Shown here: positions 32,141-40,010 of the stretch, piece by piece | Position numbering within the stretch: position 1 is the stretch's first letter | Layout: each line of letters opens with the position of its first letter | Assembly (NCBI RefSeq): GCF_003852235.1 | Contig: NZ_CP027732.1 | Span: 2,604,001 to 2,668,000 of the forward strand | DNA length: 64,000 nt | Source: Pseudomonas sp. R4-35-07 | Lineage (GTDB): Bacteria; Pseudomonadota; Gammaproteobacteria; Pseudomonadales; Pseudomonadaceae | Direction of reading: 5' to 3' | Program-made: the position numbers and the translations under genes | The notes under the pieces: generated by a model | The model's input: the letters and a program-made list of their open reading frames with translations, nothing else | Databases searched by the model: none | What the model was told of the DNA's origin: nothing

Positions 32141-33055
32141 TCAAGCGCTTTTCGCAAGGGGTTGCTTGGCCCGCGCCAGCGCCAGGTTCAGGCGCCTGAG
32201 CAGATCGTGGGGCGGCTCGTCCAGGGCCATTACCACCGCCGTGGTCGCCGCCAGTTGCAGGCGTTCGCCCTGCAGCCGGGTTTTGTGCGCCAGGCTCTGC
32301 ACCGCTTGCTGCAACTCCAGCGCCAACCCCTGAGCCTGGCGCTCGCCGGTGTTGGCCAGCAGCACCACAAAGCGGTCGCCCGCCAGGCGGCACAGCAGGT
32401 CCTGGCGGCGCAGGTTGAGCAACAGCACATGGCTGACCGCCTGCAGTACCGCATCGCCCTCGGCATGCCCGTAGGCCTGGTTGATGGCGGCAAAGTGGTC
32501 CAGGTCCAGGGCCAGCAGCGACAGCGGTTGCTGCTGGTCGCGGCTGTCGTGCAGGCTGCTTTCGAGCTGGCGCTTGAGGTAGTCGGCACCGGCCAGGGGC
32601 GTGAGTTTGTCGAACAGCCGATGCTCGCGGAACAGGCGCTCGCGCTTTTCCATCTGTGCACTGATCGCCAGTTGTTCGCGGTGCCAGTGGTAGATGCCGA
32701 TCGTCAGCAGGATCATGCCCACCGGCATCGGCCCCGACTCCAGCCAGTGGTCCCAGGTGATGCTGTCGGGCAGGCGAATGAACTCGTCGAGGCTGTCGAT
32801 CCACCAGGAAAAGAAGATGCACGACAGGCCCAGTGCCAAGTAGTTGGTGACTCGCCCGGCGGGGCGGCTTTTCAGTACCAGGCCGAGCCATATCAACGCG
32901 AGCAGCGCCGAACCGCCTTCACCGACGATATCCAGCCACACCCACTCACTGAGGCTTTTGAGCTCGCCGCAGGCCAGGTGCAGGATCAGCCCGAGGTTGG
33001 CAGCGATCAGCAGCAGGGCGAGCTTCCAGCGATGGGGTTTGAGCACGCAGAACAT
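32141..33055 (-). CDS. Membrane protein with degenerate GGDEF domain
   Basis: A 304-residue inner-membrane protein with five or so N-terminal helices (about 12-125), a short linker, and a diguanylate-cyclase-like domain (about 145-300). The fold markers LTPLAGADYLKRQL and LALDLDHFAAINQAYGHAEGD are present. The catalytic GG(D/E)EF signature is replaced by AGDRF (225-229), so cyclic-di-GMP synthesis is unlikely. It may act as a nucleotide or ligand sensor. It sits directly before, and probably coupled to, an AraC regulator, which suggests a membrane input to that regulator (inference). Confidence 0.85.
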   Translation of the reverse strand: MFCVLKPHRWKLALLLIAANLGLILHLACGELKSLSEWVWLDIVGEGGSALLALIWLGLVLKSRPAGRVTNYLALGLSCIFFSWWIDSLDEFIRLPDSITWDHWLESGPMPVGMILLTIGIYHWHREQLAISAQMEKRERLFREHRLFDKLTPLAGADYLKRQLESSLHDSRDQQQPLSLLALDLDHFAAINQAYGHAEGDAVLQAVSHVLLLNLRRQDLLCRLAGDRFVVLLANTGERQAQGLALELQQAVQSLAHKTRLQGERLQLAATTAVVMALDEPPHDLLRRLNLALARAKQPLAKSA

Positions 33056-33174
33056 GGGTGCGGGTCCTTGGATGGTCCAGTCGTGAGCGCCAGCACAGCA
33101 GATGCATGTGACGGTTGGATGACGGTGGAGGAGGGTCGGATCAGCTCACATCAAAGGGCGATGAAAATCAAAAT

Positions 33175-33261
33175 GTGGGAGGGGGCTTGCTCCCGATAGC
33201 GGTGCATCAGTCAGAGCTATTGGGGCTGACACACCGCTATCGGGGGCAAGCCCCCTCCCAC
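33175..33261. repeat. REPIN between the GGDEF-like gene and the phytase locus
   Basis: GI-type inverted REP pair, arms GTGGGAGGGGGCTTGC and complement, in a divergent intergenic region. Confidence 0.94.
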
Positions 33262-33344
33262 AGGGGATCTTCACAGGTCATATCAGCTCATTTGCACCGG
33301 CAGTACCGCGCTGAACCCCGGTTTACGGGCCTTCACACCGAGTT

Positions 33345-33362
33345 CTGTCACAGAACCGTCAT
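33345..33362 (+). promoter_or_regulatory. Pho box (PhoB site) before the receptor-phytase operon
   Basis: CTGTCAC (33345-33351), four bases, CCGTCAT (33356-33362). Each is a 6/7 match to the PhoB half-site CTGTCAT, with the standard 11-base period. TAGCTT at 33373-33378 is a fair -10 at the spacing typical of PhoB-activated promoters. This places the receptor and probably the phytase under phosphate starvation control. Confidence 0.75.
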
Positions 33363-33435
33363 CCCCCACCCCTAGCTTGCCCTTCCAGTTGCCGGGCCCC
33401 TTGCCTGGCGCCAACGGATTCTTGGGGAGGGTTTC

Positions 33436-35940
33436 ATGTACAAGCGCACCGGGCTCGTCAGCTTTACGCTTACCGCCTTGGCCCTGGCGATCACCTGCGA
33501 GCGGCTCAATGCTGCCGAGACCGAGCATGTCGAGGTGGTCGGCCAAGCCGCCGCCATCGGCAGCGCCCTCAAGGAACAGCGCAGCTCCGACAGCATCAAG
33601 AGCGTGGTGCATGCCGACGGTGTGGCGCAGTTGCCGGACGAGAACGTCGCCGAAGCGGTGCAGCGCCTGCCGGGAGTCAGTGTGGAGCGCGACCAGGGCG
33701 AAGGCCGGTTCGTCAGCGTGCGCGGCCTGGGCCCGGACCTCAACAGCGTGACCATCAACGGCACCCTGGTGCCGTCGCCCGAGAGCGAGCGCCGCGCCGT
33801 GGCCCTCGACGTACTGCCCTCGGAACTGGTGCAGTCGCTGTCGGTGATCAAGACCCTCACGCCGGACATGGACGCCAACTCCCTTGGCGGCACCGTCGAC
33901 GTGAAGAGCCTGTCGGCGTTCGACCACAAGGGCCTGTTCTATACCGGCAGCACCGAGGCCAGCTATGACAAGAACACCGCCCAGACCAGCCCGAAATTCT
34001 CCGGCGCCGCCAGCAACCGTTTCAGCCTCGGCGACGGTGTCGACAACTTCGGCGTGGCCGCGGCCCTCAGTTGGCAGCAGCGTGATTTCGGCTCGGACAA
34101 CGTCGAGACCGGCGGCGCCTGGGATTTCAGCAACGGCGCCAGGCTCAACGAGTTCGAACAGCGCGACTATGACATCCGCCGCGAACGCGCCGGTGGCGGG
34201 CTGAACTTCGACTACAAGCCCGATGACCTGAGCAGCTACTACCTGCGCACCCTCTACAGTCGCTACAAGGACACCGAAACCCGCAACGCCGCCAGCCTCG
34301 AATTCGCAGACCCCCAGGCGCCGGGCGAACTGGGCGAGGCCGAGGGTAAGCGCAAGCTGAAGAACCGCGAGGAAACCCAGCAAATCCAGTCCTACGTGTT
34401 CGGCGGCGAACGCATGCTTGGCCTCTGGACCTTGAGCGGCCAGGCCGGCTACAGCCGCTCCAGTGAAGACAGCCCGGCGCATATTGCCGGGGCCACGTTC
34501 GACGGCGGTGACTTTGCCGACAGCGGCTTCTACGACACGGCCAAGCCACGCCCGATCATTGGCAACAGCTTCTACGACCCCGGCAGTTTCACTCTCGACA
34601 AGGTTGACTGGGAAAAACAGCACACCCAGGACACCGAGAAAAACCTGCGCCTGGACCTGGCCCGCGACTATGACCTGAGTGGCTACGCCTCCCAGTTCAA
34701 GTTCGGCGGCAAGGTCAGCCGGCGCCACAAGGACAACGACCTGGAGGCCTGGGTCTACAAGGACCTGGATGAACAGGGCCTGACTGACGAACAGCTCAAC
34801 CTCAGCCAATTCCAGAAGGGTAATGTCGACTACCGCCTTGGCCGTTTCGGGCCGGGTATCAGCGCGGGTAACATCCGCCAACTGATCGGCGGCCTCAACC
34901 GCGATGACTTCTACGACCCCACCGAATCCCGGGTCAACGACTTCACCATCCACGAAGACATCAACGCCGGCTACCTGATGAACACCGTCGATATCGACGA
35001 CTGGCGCTTCATCGCCGGGATGCGCTACGAGGGCACCGAGTTCGACGCCAAGGGCACCGGCGCCACGGACGGCCAGTTCAGCGCCACCGAGACCAAGCGC
35101 CGTTATCACCACTGGCTGCCGGGCCTGCATGCGCGCTACCAGATCGACAAGAACACCCAGGTGCGCGCTGCCTGGACCAAATCCGTGGTGCGCCCGACCT
35201 TCGGCCAACTGGCCCCCGGTTTCGTGATCGACGATGACGAGGCCACCTTCGGCAACCCGGACCTCAAGCCCCTGGAATCGAGCAACCTGGACCTGGGCAT
35301 CGAACACTTCATGGGCCGCGCCGGTACCGTGTCGGCGTTCGTGTTCTACAAGGACATCCAGAATTTCGTTTACAACACCGACGTCGCCGGCACTGGTGCC
35401 TGGGCCAACTTTGCCGAGGCGCACACCTTCGCCAACGGCGACAGCGCCAAGCTGTATGGCCTGGAACTGGCTTACTCGCAAAAATTCGACTGGCTGCCCG
35501 CGCCATGGAACGGCCTGCTGATCGGCGCCAACAGCACCTTCAGCCGCTCCAGCGCGGATATCGAGGGCTTCGACAGCGCCAGTGGCGGTAACCGCAAGCG
35601 CAACATCAGCCTGCCCAACCAGTCGGACACCGTCGGCAACCTGATGCTGGGCTGGGAAGATGACAGGTTCAGCCTGCGTGTTTCGGCCAACTACAAGTCG
35701 GCCTACCTGTACGAGCTGGCGTCGATCAACGACAAGGCCCACGACCTGCATGTGGATGCGCAGACCTTCGTCGATTTCAGCGCGCGCTATTCGCTGAGCA
35801 AAAACCTGCAAGTCAGCTTCGAGGCGCAGAACCTCACGGATGAGTCGTACTTCGTCTACACCGGCCACCGCAGCTACAACGGCCAGTACGAGGAATACGG
35901 GCCTACTTACAAGCTGGGCCTGACCTTCACCCATTTCTAA
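33436..35940 (+). CDS. TonB-dependent receptor linked to phytase
   Basis: Outer-membrane transporter of 834 residues resembling the large TonB-dependent receptor group typified in Xanthomonas and Caulobacter (TIGR01782-like). A signal peptide ends near RLNAAE, followed at once by a TonB-box-like EHVEVVG. The plug (about 45-165) has VAEAVQRLPGVSVERDQGEGRFVSVRG and NSLGGTVDV, and a barrel ends in LGLTFTHF. No N-terminal signalling domain is present, so it does not use a FpvA-type surface signalling route. It follows a Pho box and precedes a phytase and TolQ/TolR/TonB-like genes. The substrate is likely a phosphorylated compound such as an inositol phosphate or its calcium complex (inference). 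Confidence 0.92.
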   Translation: MYKRTGLVSFTLTALALAITCERLNAAETEHVEVVGQAAAIGSALKEQRSSDSIKSVVHADGVAQLPDENVAEAVQRLPGVSVERDQGEGRFVSVRGLGPDLNSVTINGTLVPSPESERRAVALDVLPSELVQSLSVIKTLTPDMDANSLGGTVDVKSLSAFDHKGLFYTGSTEASYDKNTAQTSPKFSGAASNRFSLGDGVDNFGVAAALSWQQRDFGSDNVETGGAWDFSNGARLNEFEQRDYDIRRERAGGGLNFDYKPDDLSSYYLRTLYSRYKDTETRNAASLEFADPQAPGELGEAEGKRKLKNREETQQIQSYVFGGERMLGLWTLSGQAGYSRSSEDSPAHIAGATFDGGDFADSGFYDTAKPRPIIGNSFYDPGSFTLDKVDWEKQHTQDTEKNLRLDLARDYDLSGYASQFKFGGKVSRRHKDNDLEAWVYKDLDEQGLTDEQLNLSQFQKGNVDYRLGRFGPGISAGNIRQLIGGLNRDDFYDPTESRVNDFTIHEDINAGYLMNTVDIDDWRFIAGMRYEGTEFDAKGTGATDGQFSATETKRRYHHWLPGLHARYQIDKNTQVRAAWTKSVVRPTFGQLAPGFVIDDDEATFGNPDLKPLESSNLDLGIEHFMGRAGTVSAFVFYKDIQNFVYNTDVAGTGAWANFAEAHTFANGDSAKLYGLELAYSQKFDWLPAPWNGLLIGANSTFSRSSADIEGFDSASGGNRKRNISLPNQSDTVGNLMLGWEDDRFSLRVSANYKSAYLYELASINDKAHDLHVDAQTFVDFSARYSLSKNLQVSFEAQNLTDESYFVYTGHRSYNGQYEEYGPTYKLGLTFTHF

Positions 35941-35959
35941 CCCACACCTCGGTCGAAAT

Positions 35960-36047
35960 GTGGGAGGGGGCTTGCTCCCGATAGCGGTGTGTCTGGCAGC
36001 ACATACATTGACTGAACCACCGCCATCGGGAGCAAGCCCCCTCCCAC
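35960..36047. repeat. REPIN inside the receptor-phytase operon
   Basis: GI-type inverted REP pair between two same-strand genes. It could lower readthrough from the receptor to the phytase or stabilise the upstream message. Confidence 0.95.
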
Positions 36048-36084
36048 ATTGGATCTTCATCGTATTTAAAGGATTTGTTTGTCC

Positions 36085-37944
36085 ATGAGAATTTGCAAGC
36101 TGTTGCTGTTGATGGCGCTGTCAGGCCAGGTGTTAGCAGTTGACTTGGCCCTGTCTCCCTGGGCGCCGGGGTTGACTGCTGAGGCTGTCGCCTTCCTGCC
36201 CAACGGCACCCAACGCCTCGCCGCCAGTGCCCGCGACGGCCTGTTACTGCTTGACGATAAAGGCGCCGAGCTGGCCCGATTCAAGGGTAATTTCAGCAGC
36301 CTCGACACACGCACCGTCGGCACTCAAACGCTGGTCGCCAGTCTCGACAACCATCGCCAACAGACCTTGCTGATCAGCCTGGACAGCGCCGGCAAAACCT
36401 GGGGCAAACCCCTGTACCTGCCGACCCGCGATTACCCGGTGAATGGCCTGTGCCTGTACCGCGATTCGGCGGCCAACCTGTTTGTGTTCCTGGTGGGCGA
36501 GGAGGGCAAAGGTGAGCAATGGCTGGTGGGCAACGCCGCGACGCTGCTGGCCCAGGCGCAGCGTGTACGCGGGCTGCCGCTGCCGCCATCGGCGCAGTTC
36601 TGCCAGGTGGACGATGCGGCCGCGCGCCTGGTGGTGAACGAGACCAATATCGGCTGGTGGGCCTACCCGGCGCACCCGGAAGCCGCGGTGAAACGCACGC
36701 CCGTTGCGCTGTTCGATGACCCCAGGCGCGAAGCCGGCGCCATGGCGCTGGTGCCGGGTGGAATGGTGGCCCTGGACCCGAAAACCGCGCAATTGCATCT
36801 GTTCCAGCAAACCGGCGAACGTTGGGTCGAGCAGTCGAGCCTGAGCTTGCCGGGCCTCAAGGAGCCGGAGCAAGTGGCGATCCACGGCCGGCAGTTGCTG
36901 GTGCGCGATGACGACAGCGGCCAGCTCTATCAGGGCCGCCTCGACTGGCAGGCCACGCCGGTGCCGGCTGCCCCGGTGCTGCCGCAGGTCGGCGCATTGC
37001 GCCAGACCGAACCCGTGAGCCGCCAGGGCGATGCGGCGGATGATCCGGCGATCTGGATTCACCCGCACACCCCCGCGAAAAGCCGTGTGCTGGGCACCAA
37101 CAAAAAACAGGGCCTGCTGGCCTACGACCTCAACGGCAAGCTGTTGCAGGAACTGGCCGTGGGGCGCCTGAACAACGTCGACGTGCGCCCCAACTTCAAG
37201 CTTGGCGCACAGACCGTCGACCTCGCCGTCGCCAGCAATCGCGATCGCAACAGCCTGAGCCTGTTCAGCATTGACCGACAGAGCGGCGAGCTGCAGGCAG
37301 CCGGCGAAGTGCCGACGCCGCTCAAGGAAATCTACGGCATCTGCCTGTTCCAGCCCGCCAGCGGCGAGCTCTATGCCATCGCCAATGGCAAGGACGGCAC
37401 CTTCCTGCAATACCGCCTGAGTGCGCCGGCCGGGCGTGTGCAAGGCGAGTTGGTGCGCCAGTTCAAGGTCGACAGCCAGCCGGAAGGCTGCGTGGCCGAT
37501 GACCAACGCCAGCGCTTGTTTCTCGGGGAAGAAGACGTCGGCGTGTGGGCGGTGGATGCGCGTGCCGACCAGCCGGCCACCCTGGCCAGCGTGATCAAGG
37601 TGGGTGCGCAGTTGCATGCGGACGTCGAGGGCCTGGCGCTGTATCAGAGCCCCGCGCGGGGTTACCTGGTGGTCTCCAGCCAGGGCAATGACAGCTACCT
37701 GGTGCTCGACGCCGAACCGCCGTTCGCCGTGCGAGGGGCGTTTCGCGTCGGTTTGAACGCCGCCGCCGGCATCGATGGCGCCTCGGAAACCGACGGCCTC
37801 GAGGCCACTGCCGTCAACCTGGGTGGGCCGTGGAGCCAAGGCATGCTGGTGGTGCAGGACGGGCGCAAGCGCATGCCCGAGCAAGCCCAGAATTTCAAGT
37901 TCGTGCCCTGGGACGAGGTGACCCGCGCATTGAAATTACCTTGA
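36085..37944 (+). CDS. Dual-domain beta-propeller phytase (3-phytase)
   Basis: Secreted calcium-dependent phosphatase that releases phosphate from phytate. The 619-residue product has a signal peptide (MRICKLLLLMALSGQVLA). Residues about 20-305 form an incomplete propeller domain, and about 310-619 form the complete catalytic one. The latter shows the family hallmarks GDAADDPAIWIHP, TNKKQGLLAYDLNGK, GRLNNVDVR, QPEGCVADDQ and LFLGEEDVGVW. Tandem phytases of this type are known in which the N-terminal half assists the C-terminal half. ATG at 36085 follows AAAGGA. It lies between the receptor and the energiser genes; the Pho box at 33345 suits its role. Confidence 0.92.
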   Translation: MRICKLLLLMALSGQVLAVDLALSPWAPGLTAEAVAFLPNGTQRLAASARDGLLLLDDKGAELARFKGNFSSLDTRTVGTQTLVASLDNHRQQTLLISLDSAGKTWGKPLYLPTRDYPVNGLCLYRDSAANLFVFLVGEEGKGEQWLVGNAATLLAQAQRVRGLPLPPSAQFCQVDDAAARLVVNETNIGWWAYPAHPEAAVKRTPVALFDDPRREAGAMALVPGGMVALDPKTAQLHLFQQTGERWVEQSSLSLPGLKEPEQVAIHGRQLLVRDDDSGQLYQGRLDWQATPVPAAPVLPQVGALRQTEPVSRQGDAADDPAIWIHPHTPAKSRVLGTNKKQGLLAYDLNGKLLQELAVGRLNNVDVRPNFKLGAQTVDLAVASNRDRNSLSLFSIDRQSGELQAAGEVPTPLKEIYGICLFQPASGELYAIANGKDGTFLQYRLSAPAGRVQGELVRQFKVDSQPEGCVADDQRQRLFLGEEDVGVWAVDARADQPATLASVIKVGAQLHADVEGLALYQSPARGYLVVSSQGNDSYLVLDAEPPFAVRGAFRVGLNAAAGIDGASETDGLEATAVNLGGPWSQGMLVVQDGRKRMPEQAQNFKFVPWDEVTRALKLP

Positions 37945-37991
37945 GCTGTCATCACCCAGTCACGCGTATTTAATCGAATAGGAGCTTCACC

Positions 37992-38684
37992 ATGCATGCG
38001 ACGATGGAACATATGACGATCTGGAGCTTGATCAGCGACGCCAGCCTATTGGTCAAGGCGGTGATGATCACCTTGCTGTTGGCATCGGTGATCAGTTGGT
38101 ACCTGATCATCCGGCGCGGCAGTGTGCTGCGGCGCCTGGAGCGGCAGTTGCACGCCTTCGTGGTGCGCTTTCGCGCCGCATCGGATCTGCAACCGCTGTA
38201 TCGCGACGCTGTGCAGGCGGGTGAGGGCGGTGTGGCGCCGATTTTTATCGCCGGCCTGCAGGAATACCAGCACCTGCACCACCACGATCCCGCAGTGCTC
38301 GAAGGCGTGGAGCGCGCCTTGCAGGTGGCGATCACCGAGCAGGAGCTTGAGCTGGAAAAGGGCCTGCAGTTTCTCGCGACAGTGGGCTCGGTCAGCCCCT
38401 ACATCGGCCTGTTCGGCACGGTGTGGGGCATCATGAATTCCTTCCTCGGCTTGTCCCAGGTGCAACAGGCCACGTTGTCGACGGTGGCGCCGGGCATCGC
38501 TGAAGCCTTGATTGCCACGGCCATCGGCCTGTTCGCGGCGATCCCGGCCGTGATCGCCTATAACCGCTTTGCCGCGCGCAGCCAGAGCCTGCTCACCCGT
38601 TACTACGCCTTCGGCAACGAACTGCAAGTGCGCCTGCACCGTGCCCTGCGCGGTACCCCGATCAACTTGGCCGTGGCCGCCTGA
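37992..38684 (+). CDS. TolQ/ExbB-family proton-channel protein
   Basis: Inner-membrane subunit that couples the proton gradient to TonB/TolA-type proteins; 230 residues with three membrane helices (about 18-40, 130-155, 172-195). The conserved TolQ-type region TVGSVSPYIGLFGTVWGIMNSF and APGIAEALIATAIGLFAAIPAVIAYNR is nearly identical to TolQ, more so than to ExbB. It starts 47 bases after the phytase with AGGAG ahead, and is followed by TolR-like and TonB-like genes, so the three form a dedicated energiser. It is unlikely to be the housekeeping tolQ, since pal, tolB and ybgC are absent. Confidence 0.9.
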   Translation: MHATMEHMTIWSLISDASLLVKAVMITLLLASVISWYLIIRRGSVLRRLERQLHAFVVRFRAASDLQPLYRDAVQAGEGGVAPIFIAGLQEYQHLHHHDPAVLEGVERALQVAITEQELELEKGLQFLATVGSVSPYIGLFGTVWGIMNSFLGLSQVQQATLSTVAPGIAEALIATAIGLFAAIPAVIAYNRFAARSQSLLTRYYAFGNELQVRLHRALRGTPINLAVAA

Positions 38685-38699
38685 ACAAGGAGCGAACCG

Positions 38700-39146
38700 A
38701 TGTTGACCAGGCCGCAACGCAAGCACGGGCCCAAGGCCGAGATGAACGTGGTGCCTTACATCGACGTGATGCTGGTGCTGCTGGTGATCTTCATGGTCAC
38801 CGCGCCGATGCTGACCCAGGGCGTGAAGGTCGAACTGCCCAAGGTCGCCGCCGAGGCGCTGGCCACTGACACCCGCCAGCAGATCCTCACGCTGTCGGTG
38901 CAGGCGGACGGCGGTTACTACTGGAACCTGGGCGGCGAGCTCGACACCCGCAACCAGACCGACAGCGCCGTGAGCCTGGAAGAAATGGGCGCCAAGGTCA
39001 TGCAGGTGGTGGCGGCGCGCAGCGACACCCAGGTGTATATCCGCGCGGACGACAACGCGGGGTACGGCCGCGTGGTGGCGGCCATGGCGGTGTTGCAGAA
39101 GGGCGGTGTCAGCAACCTGGGGCTGGTGACCGAGGCCCCGCAATGA
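38700..39146 (+). CDS. TolR/ExbD-family protein
   Basis: Inner-membrane, periplasm-facing partner of the TolQ-like channel; 148 residues. One N-terminal helix carries the essential acidic residue (NVVPYIDVMLVLLVIFMVTAPM; Asp about 22), followed by a periplasmic domain ending VSNLGLVTEAP. It lies 15 bases after the TolQ-like gene, and its stop overlaps the next start (ATGA), so the module is translated together. Confidence 0.92.
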   Translation: MLTRPQRKHGPKAEMNVVPYIDVMLVLLVIFMVTAPMLTQGVKVELPKVAAEALATDTRQQILTLSVQADGGYYWNLGGELDTRNQTDSAVSLEEMGAKVMQVVAARSDTQVYIRADDNAGYGRVVAAMAVLQKGGVSNLGLVTEAPQ

Positions 39147-39892
39147 CGGCGATGATCATGCACAGCCCGACACAGGCGCGGGCGCCACACAGCGACGGGA
39201 TGTGGCGCGTCAGTCTCGCGGCAGGCCTCGCCGTGGCGCTGCATGTGGCGGTAGTGGCGGCACTGATGCTGGGCTGGTCGCCGGAGAAACTGGTGGCGGA
39301 CGCGCCACGGGTGATGCATACGCAACTGGTGATGATGCCGGCGCCGGCGCCTGAGCCTGTAGCGCTCGCATTGCCTGAGCCGGTTGCGGTCCCGGTACCG
39401 GTACCGCCCAAACCGACGGTTGACCCGCAGATCCAGGCGCAGAAAATCGAGAAGGCCGCTCTGGCGCGCAAACGGGTCGAAGCGCAGAAAATCGAGCGGC
39501 AACAGCAGCGCCAGGCCACCGAGCAACGCAATCGGGAGATGGAACAGCAACGCCTGAACCAAGAGCGTGTAGCGTCCGAGAAAGCCCAAGTTGCTGTACC
39601 GGCACCCACTCCGGCGTTCGACAGCCGCCAATATCAGCCCTTGAGCAAGGAAGCGCCGGACTACCCGGAGCGCGCACTGGACAAAAATATTGAAGGCGAC
39701 TGTTCGGTGGAGTACACCGTCAATACCCAGGGCCGCGTGGAAAATCCCAAGGTGCTGGACGGCTGTCACCCGTTGTTTATCCGGCCTTCACTGGCGGCGG
39801 CGAATACCTTTCGCTATCAGCCCAGGGTCGTCGACGGCCAGCCAGTCGCCGTGCCGGCGGTGCGCAACACCTTCCACTACCGCATCAAATAA
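39143..39892 (+). CDS. TonB-family energy transducer with TolA-like middle
   Basis: Periplasm-spanning protein of 249 residues that transmits energy to an outer-membrane receptor. A cytoplasmic stretch of about 20 residues precedes one membrane helix (about 24-45). A proline-rich part (about 60-95, PAPAPEP and PVPVPPKP) and a charged Gln/Arg/Glu coiled segment (about 98-150) follow. A TonB C-terminal domain lies at about 165-249 (APDYPERALDKNIEGDCSVEYTV) with two cysteines that could pair. The helical middle recalls TolA, matching its TolQ/TolR-like partners. Most likely it serves the receptor at 33436. Confidence 0.9.
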   Translation: MTAMIMHSPTQARAPHSDGMWRVSLAAGLAVALHVAVVAALMLGWSPEKLVADAPRVMHTQLVMMPAPAPEPVALALPEPVAVPVPVPPKPTVDPQIQAQKIEKAALARKRVEAQKIERQQQRQATEQRNREMEQQRLNQERVASEKAQVAVPAPTPAFDSRQYQPLSKEAPDYPERALDKNIEGDCSVEYTVNTQGRVENPKVLDGCHPLFIRPSLAAANTFRYQPRVVDGQPVAVPAVRNTFHYRIK

Positions 39893-39911
39893 TGGCTGAC
39901 ACCGAATCAAT

Positions 39912-39998
39912 GTGGGAGGGGGCTTGCTCCCGATGGCGGTGTGTCAGTCTCTATATCAATGACTGACCCACCGCTATCGGGAGCAAGCCCCCTCCCAC
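39912..39998. repeat. REPIN between convergent TonB-like and dehydrogenase genes
   Basis: GI-type inverted REP pair in a 118-base gap between converging genes; a probable two-way terminator. Confidence 0.95.
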
Positions 39999-40010
39999 AT
40001 TTAAACGGCG

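Follow-up and report, generated by a model that had tools for sequence, protein, structure and literature searches.

The stretch of DNA considered here, called the window throughout, comprises 64,000 nucleotides of Pseudomonas sp. R4-35-07 (contig NZ_CP027732.1, positions 2,604,001 to 2,668,000 of the forward strand) and contains a gene cluster that combines a TonB-dependent receptor (TBDR), a dual-domain β-propeller phytase and three genes together called the energiser: a channel subunit derived from TolQ (QL), a subunit derived from TolR (RL) and a protein of the TonB family. A gene for a membrane protein of the GGDEF family is oriented divergently from the receptor, and sequences of Pho-box type precede the receptor, the GGDEF gene and the energiser (table 1). 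The five genes running from the receptor to the TonB protein are co-directional and in the same order in all the 80 Pseudomonas loci that were fetched, which were picked for identity spread and contig room out of about 128 phytase-bearing genomes; the linkage proposed in a preliminary description of this DNA thus holds throughout the sample. The same description had called for a check of co-occurrence, which gave an almost perfect overlap: among 398 genomes of the genus the phytase protein is found in 129 and the receptor in 128, the genomes being identical save G087, where the phytase match is marginal (34% identity, E 3.1e-4). In G038 and G076 only part of the phytase is matched, and in G286 and G380 the match is split into segments. 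When 80 of the 269 phytase-less genomes were searched with the TolR-like protein (E ≤ 1e-20), 78 returned one match and 2 none; the matches are 53-63% identical, as expected for housekeeping TolR. Because a second copy of TolR type was found in none of these 80 genomes, the energiser appears to be absent where receptor and phytase are absent. As a separate observation, the receptor match is split into two overlapping pieces in different frames in G359 (locus L047), G286 and G316 (locus L059), which may point to a disrupted gene or to an assembly error.

Table 1. Features of the phytase cluster, with positions counted from the first nucleotide of the window
Feature	Position	Strand	Basis or remark
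GGDEF-family membrane protein, 304 aa	32141..33055	-	PF00990, 114 bits; divergent from receptor
Pho box CCGTCATCCAACCGTCAC	33108..33125	-	1 mismatch; 53 to 70 bp upstream of GGDEF start
Pho box CTGTCACAGAACCGTCAT	33345..33362	+	0 mismatches; begins 91 bp 5' of TBDR ATG
-10-like TAGCTT (sequence-predicted)	33373..33378	+	10 bp past Pho box; within conserved CCTAGCtTGC block (77 loci)
TonB-dependent receptor (TBDR), 834 aa	33436..35940	+	Plug, TonB_dep_Rec, TIGR01782
Dual-domain β-propeller phytase	36085..37944	+	PF02333; alignment with Bacillus 3amr; internal similarity of halves
Pho-box-like site CTGTCATCACCCAGTCAC, 5' of energiser	37946..37963	+	1 mismatch to relaxed pattern, 3 to stricter one
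TCGAAT, 10 bp past energiser Pho-like site	37974..37979	+	
TolQ-derived proton channel subunit, QL	37992..38684	+	TIGR02796, tree
TolR-derived subunit, RL	38700..39146	+	TIGR02801, tree
TonB-family protein, TolA-like charged middle	39143..39892	+	PF03544, TIGR01352

The family assignments of the preliminary description proved accurate for all five genes. The receptor contains domains PF07715 and PF00593, scores 634 bits with TIGR01782 (cut-off 310) and has a putative TonB box, TEHVEVVG, recognized by eye behind its signal peptide. In the phytase, the C-terminal half matches PF02333 (293 bits, E 3.9e-87, profile positions 33-357 of 375) and its residues 302-613 align with residues 10-331 of the solved Bacillus phytase 3amr (E 1.5e-71), while residues 39-197 of the N-terminal half resemble the protein's own C-terminal half (25% identity, E 1.6e-9); the N-terminus looks of Sec type by eye. 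The enzyme is predicted to hydrolyze phytate. The claim that the channel subunit is of TolQ rather than ExbB type is confirmed by profile scores, since QL reaches 248.7 bits with the tolQ model TIGR02796 (cut-off 221) and remains below the exbB cut-off (166.9 vs 206.2). It also remains below a stricter model for TolQ of enterobacterial type (207 vs 403), and the PRK models of TolQ and TolR are not passed. RL similarly passes TIGR02801 (138.5 vs 127.3) and falls below ExbD_1 (72.7 vs 152.95). The third protein, the ATG of which overlaps the stop codon of RL by 4 bp, belongs to PF03544, passes TIGR01352 (31.6 vs 27.1) and matches the full-length TolA model only along residues 28-149, with a score of 24.8 vs 59.45, in keeping with the TolA-like middle that had been described.

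Phylogenetic trees agree with the proposed recruitment of the energiser from the Tol branch, which is well supported by the sequences. QL proteins form a single clade (support 100/99) joined to Pseudomonadaceae TolQ (97/93), and RL proteins likewise form a single clade (99/94) joined to Pseudomonadaceae TolR (97/96), in trees of 38 and 37 sequences that included 21 of the 83 QL and RL proteins each, plus three Pseudomonadaceae TolQ or TolR proteins each. Owing to long outgroup branches the deep placement of ExbB and ExbD is unsure (in the RL tree the ExbD proteins do not fall on one side), with no effect on the junction with Tol. These trees would be explained most simply by a single duplication of the TolQ-TolR pair. 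Identity to the TolQ and TolR of the same genome, which lie in a ybgC-tolQ-tolR-tolA-like order (names assigned by eye), is 60% for QL and 57% for RL. The best 120 of 8000 scored proteins in a search with QL are all close relatives, labeled as Pseudomonas TolQ wherever a source is named. The possibility that QL is an ExbB under another name is ruled out by model scores and tree, and the separate tolQ-tolR-tolA-like locus rules out that the energiser constitutes the sole TolQ-TolR of the genome. Residues that we take to be needed for proton-driven work are retained: the TolQ-type Thr143 and Thr176 in 83/83 QL proteins, the TolR-type transmembrane Asp22 in 83/83 RL proteins and the transmembrane His34 in 81/83 TonB proteins. 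The energiser is Tol-derived and lies outside the Tol-Pal system proper: its third gene is of the TonB family, and neither TolB nor Pal was found among the five neighboring open reading frames (ORFs) that were scanned. On one flank these ORFs encode regulators of LysR and AraC type; those on the opposite flank encode a 2-hydroxyacid dehydrogenase, an acyl-CoA dehydrogenase and a luciferase-like monooxygenase. Since all five belong to unrelated families, the cluster is bounded at positions 32141-39892. Elsewhere in the genome (5687363-5688984) there is a further TonB system, with an ExbB-like gene (40% identical to QL) and a nearby TonB_C gene.

The preliminary description was right about the five genes and overlooked the divergent GGDEF gene with its box, as well as the box before the energiser. 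The GGDEF protein has a PF00990 domain behind a membrane segment and an N-terminus of about four helices, as judged by eye, with no other recognized domain. Its active-site motif is AGDRF, rather than GG(D/E)EF, in 83 of 88 and 73 of 74 sequences (two sets that overlap in genomes), and an RxxD I-site, RRQD in the window protein, lies five residues before the motif in 87/88 and 74/74. The glutamate of the GGDEF motif is needed for catalysis. Because this residue has been lost while the I-site has been kept, the protein is probably a receptor of cyclic di-GMP (c-di-GMP) rather than a cyclase. Of the 80 Pseudomonas loci, 71 have a divergent orthologue no more than 1.2 kb away from the TBDR match; among the nine others, the TBDR match is partial in L047, L059 and L075, L073 meets a contig edge, and in the remaining five (L104, L107, L108, L110, L111) the GGDEF gene is farther off. 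In a second set, formed by the best 80 of 573 named loci and overlapping the genus set in genomes, the gene is found in 73, and the seven misses end at a contig edge. That it is a random neighbor is ruled out by its constant divergent place and its own box across families. A search at the level of the class (234 genomes, profile E ≤ 1e-50) found it in two genomes, that of the window and G607, both of which have the phytase.

Passages of PMC4415409 describe the Pho box as two direct repeats of 11 nucleotides, with seven conserved bases each, located upstream of the promoter; pattern scans and conservation reveal the same architecture at the locus. The pattern that we used has two half-sites with an 11-bp period and is scored out of 16, and the box reported before the receptor was recovered with it without any mismatch. 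A scan of the window allowing up to three mismatches gave 8 matches vs 4.85 expected, a number reached by 14 of 100 shuffles, so only matches with 0 or 1 mismatch stand out. Stronger evidence comes from comparing loci. A site with a score of 13 or more lies within 160 bp 5' of the TBDR in 79 of the 80 Pseudomonas loci, and the remaining locus scores 12; the GGDEF gene has a box of at least 13 in 63 of 71 loci, and the energiser one of at least 12 in 58 of 80 and of at least 13 in 38 of 80. Box columns are better conserved than their flanks, the receptor box showing 1.67 bits per column vs 0.53 for the flank on its left and 1.13 for that on its right. This column analysis retained 77, 73 and 70 of the 80 loci for the receptor, GGDEF and QL sets, respectively, the latter two after a filter requiring a box score of at least 11, which raises their figures. 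Outside the family, both divergent promoters of 15 non-Pseudomonadaceae loci carry a site that beats dinucleotide shuffles, with p values per locus of 0.001-0.038 (the floor being 0.001) for loci that are related and hence non-independent; a 16th locus, L277, is cut. The exact 18-mer of the window precedes the receptor also in Thalassolituus alkanivorans (L284) and in a metagenome-assembled genome (MAG) of Thalassobium (L314). Chance is therefore ruled out as the origin of the Pho box by its conservation across loci, and control of Pho type may be predicted from the sequence, with PhoB as the protein presumably bound. In the genome of the window, 3 of the 17 sites found with a relaxed pattern fall inside the locus, and others stand before genes for an acid phosphatase, an OlsB-like acyltransferase and a PstC-like protein, the latter two with scores under the cut-offs of the OlsB and PstC models.

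How far does this association extend beyond Pseudomonas? We analyzed 40 phytase loci from 39 of the 43 PF02333-matching genomes outside the genus (G606, G1134, G1049 and G1068 were left out). In 21 of them the phytase is preceded by a full-length receptor in the same orientation; three have a partial or weak co-directional match, eight a divergent match (partial in five) and eight none nearby. A divergent GGDEF match, weak or atypical in L210 and L214, is found in 13 loci, and the energiser in two, both from other genera of Pseudomonadaceae. Among the best 80 of the 573 named loci, all have the receptor-phytase pair and 63 the energiser. Two of the 17 others (L277, L323) are truncated by the end of a contig; the remaining 15 reach at least 2.9 kb past the phytase, so that the energiser is absent there at the locus itself. 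They belong to Gilvimarinus (five), Cellvibrio (three), Thalassolituus, a Thalassobium MAG, Ferrimonas, Endozoicomonas, Pseudomaricurvus, a gammaproteobacterial MAG and a Saccharospirillaceae MAG. To speak of a self-contained system is consequently too strong, given that the pair stands without this energiser at its side in loci of Gilvimarinus, Cellvibrio, Thalassolituus, Ferrimonas, Endozoicomonas and Pseudomaricurvus. Because pairs outside Pseudomonadaceae keep the GGDEF gene without the energiser, the GGDEF gene is, on this comparison of loci, the older partner, and the energiser looks like an addition of Pseudomonadaceae. An N-terminal extension of CarboxypepD_reg type is present on the four non-Pseudomonadaceae receptors that were scanned (L276, L284, L333, L271) and absent from the receptor of the window. 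The contig of L345, titled as a Sphingopyxis MAG (NORP11), has a cluster that resembles those of Pseudomonadaceae and includes the energiser; it is possibly mis-binned.

Paired repeats of REP type (TGTGGGAGGGGGCTTGCTCCCGAT...) occur three times around the genes, 5' of the receptor (33168-33273), between receptor and phytase (35953-36059) and 3' of the TonB gene (39905-40010). Scans for sigma-70 promoters and terminators performed no better than chance.

Taken together, the gene content, its order and co-occurrence, the boxes, the Tol origin of QL and RL and the conserved residues of channel and TonB protein lead us to consider it rather probable that this is a phytate-scavenging locus under Pho control. 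From these features we infer PhoB binding, phytate as the ligand, the location of the phytase, the pairing of energiser and receptor and the role of the GGDEF protein, as follows. When phosphate is scarce, PhoB would bind the three Pho boxes and turn on receptor and phytase, the energiser and the divergent GGDEF protein. The receptor would most likely carry phytate through the outer membrane, either in complex with a metal or as an inositol phosphate that has lost some of its phosphate groups; the phytase, exported by Sec, would free phosphate at the outer membrane or within the periplasm, and Pst would take it up. A duplicated TolQ-TolR pair that has TonB in the place of TolA can be expected to power the receptor and not Tol-Pal. 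More tentatively, and with odds that we judge to be against it, the GGDEF neighbor could be a catalytically dead, Pho-controlled sensor which reads c-di-GMP via its I-site and gates phytate capture, being the ancestral third member of a receptor-phytase module in some Gammaproteobacteria, to which Pseudomonadaceae added a private motor formed by the TolQ-TolR copy and TonB; a Tol motor would thereby have become one for nutrient uptake.

Several observations weigh against this interpretation. Of the loci outside the genus, 19 of 40 are without a full-length co-directional receptor and 27 of 40 without a GGDEF match, and receptor-phytase pairs without an adjacent energiser exist. The energiser box is the weakest of the three, with 22 of 80 loci scoring under 12. 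The 17 relaxed-pattern sites in the genome compare with 8 for a reversed control, so single pattern matches are weak evidence; of the 14 sites outside the locus, for all of which ORFs were listed, three are tied to phosphate genes, families having been scanned for four neighbors (the fourth, L142, is a LysR gene not preceded by the site). The GGDEF orthologue, intact and with a Pho-box-like site, is present in 2 of 80 phytase-less genomes (L269, L270). Alongside it L269 has a match of 36 residues to the TonB C-terminus (69%), and L270 a short match that is doubtful by eye; we read both as probable cases of operon loss, and therefore the GGDEF gene can apparently outlive the operon. The GGDEF profile of the class search, at E ≤ 1e-50, missed at least the phytase-bearing G409. 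Finally, the prediction of Pho control, plausible for its conserved boxes, meets the statement in passages of PMC5082522 that there is no evidence for PhoBR regulation of the phytases of SBW25 or DSM4166, for which a response to phytate is suggested instead. The phoBR-mutant data quoted there come from P. putida BIRD-1, and the SBW25 phytase is not necessarily the gene at this locus. The two lines of evidence could be reconciled if the phytase is retained by the cell, or if expression requires both signals.

Among alternative explanations, the energiser might not be dedicated to the receptor, serving instead as a general second TonB system or as envelope support during phosphate starvation and merely sharing Pho control. 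We regard this as unlikely, even if QL and RL exceed the TIGR cut-offs for TolQ and TolR, the energiser has a Pho-like box of its own, the receptor-phytase pair is found without it, and TonB_C is matched by four further proteins of the genome, one of them encoded where tolA would stand in the tol operon, so that the receptor could use another TonB. Yet no second TolR-type copy is seen in the phytase-less Pseudomonas genomes, the third gene ends in a TonB C-terminus and scores under the TolA cut-off, and the regulators, dehydrogenases and monooxygenase that surround the cluster include neither TolB nor Pal. A second alternative, to which we give slightly less credit, is that the receptor senses phytate or imports another ligand, such as a siderophore or a metal released from phytate, with the phytase acting outside the cell. 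Phytate chelates metals, which favors this possibility. Mention of loci for phytase secretion in passages of a P. fluorescens paper (PMC7343187) points in the same direction. The boxes are, however, of Pho type, just over half of the phytase loci outside the genus (21/40) have a full-length co-directional receptor upstream, no sigma or anti-sigma factor was found among the five neighboring ORFs scanned, and the receptor of the window lacks the N-terminal extension of its relatives, which in any case is not a known sigma-signaling domain.

It is also conceivable, and in our view improbable, that the locus escapes PhoB, its boxes serving another regulator or being relics, and that phytate itself is the inducer. 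This explanation takes its strength from the argument in PMC5082522 for phytate-responsive expression rather than PhoBR, and from passages of PMC4415409 in which confirmed boxes occur in genes without obvious phosphate regulation. It has to face boxes that hold their position at three promoters and in more than one family, although the sequence around them has changed, as well as reports that a Flavobacterium phytase and its neighboring receptor are induced by low phosphate (PMC8115612) and that PhoB of Caulobacter controls a phytase and TonB-dependent receptors (PMC11208175).

Phytate is the main phosphorus store of plants and a large phosphorus pool in soil, not readily usable by plants, and many of these bacteria are root-associated. 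The locus would offer a testable route of phytate uptake, a natural experiment in the passage from Tol motor to TonB motor and perhaps a connection of c-di-GMP signaling with phosphate starvation and the use of phytate.

The adjacency of receptor and phytase, with phytate as predicted ligand, is already published in passages of PMC3400609 and PMC8115612. As at our locus, the receptor adjoins the phytase in Citromicrobium, where phytic acid is the proposed ligand (PMC3400609), and Fjoh_1367/1368 of Flavobacterium johnsoniae are neighboring genes for receptor and phytase, both induced by low phosphate (PMC8115612); for Shewanella, a primer table names SO2523 as 'TonB-dependent phytase receptor' (PMC5955497). 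Unlike the cluster described here, these accounts, in the passages available, mention neither a dedicated energiser nor a divergent GGDEF gene. A targeted search of the open-access literature found no account of an energiser or a GGDEF partner at phytase loci, which is weak evidence of novelty. The GGDEF protein resembles the c-di-GMP receptors with degenerate GGDEF domain and I-site, presumably of PelD type, in having kept RxxD and lost the catalytic motif, and differs from them in its membrane N-terminus and in the lack of any other recognized domain. With TolQ-TolR-TolA the energiser shares the close identity of QL and RL to the TolQ and TolR of the same genome, while having TonB as partner and neither TolB nor Pal among the scanned neighbors. 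With ExbB-ExbD-TonB it has in common the run of genes, the TonB_C domain and the conserved transmembrane His, Asp and Thr; the difference is that its channel pair descends from TolQ-TolR.

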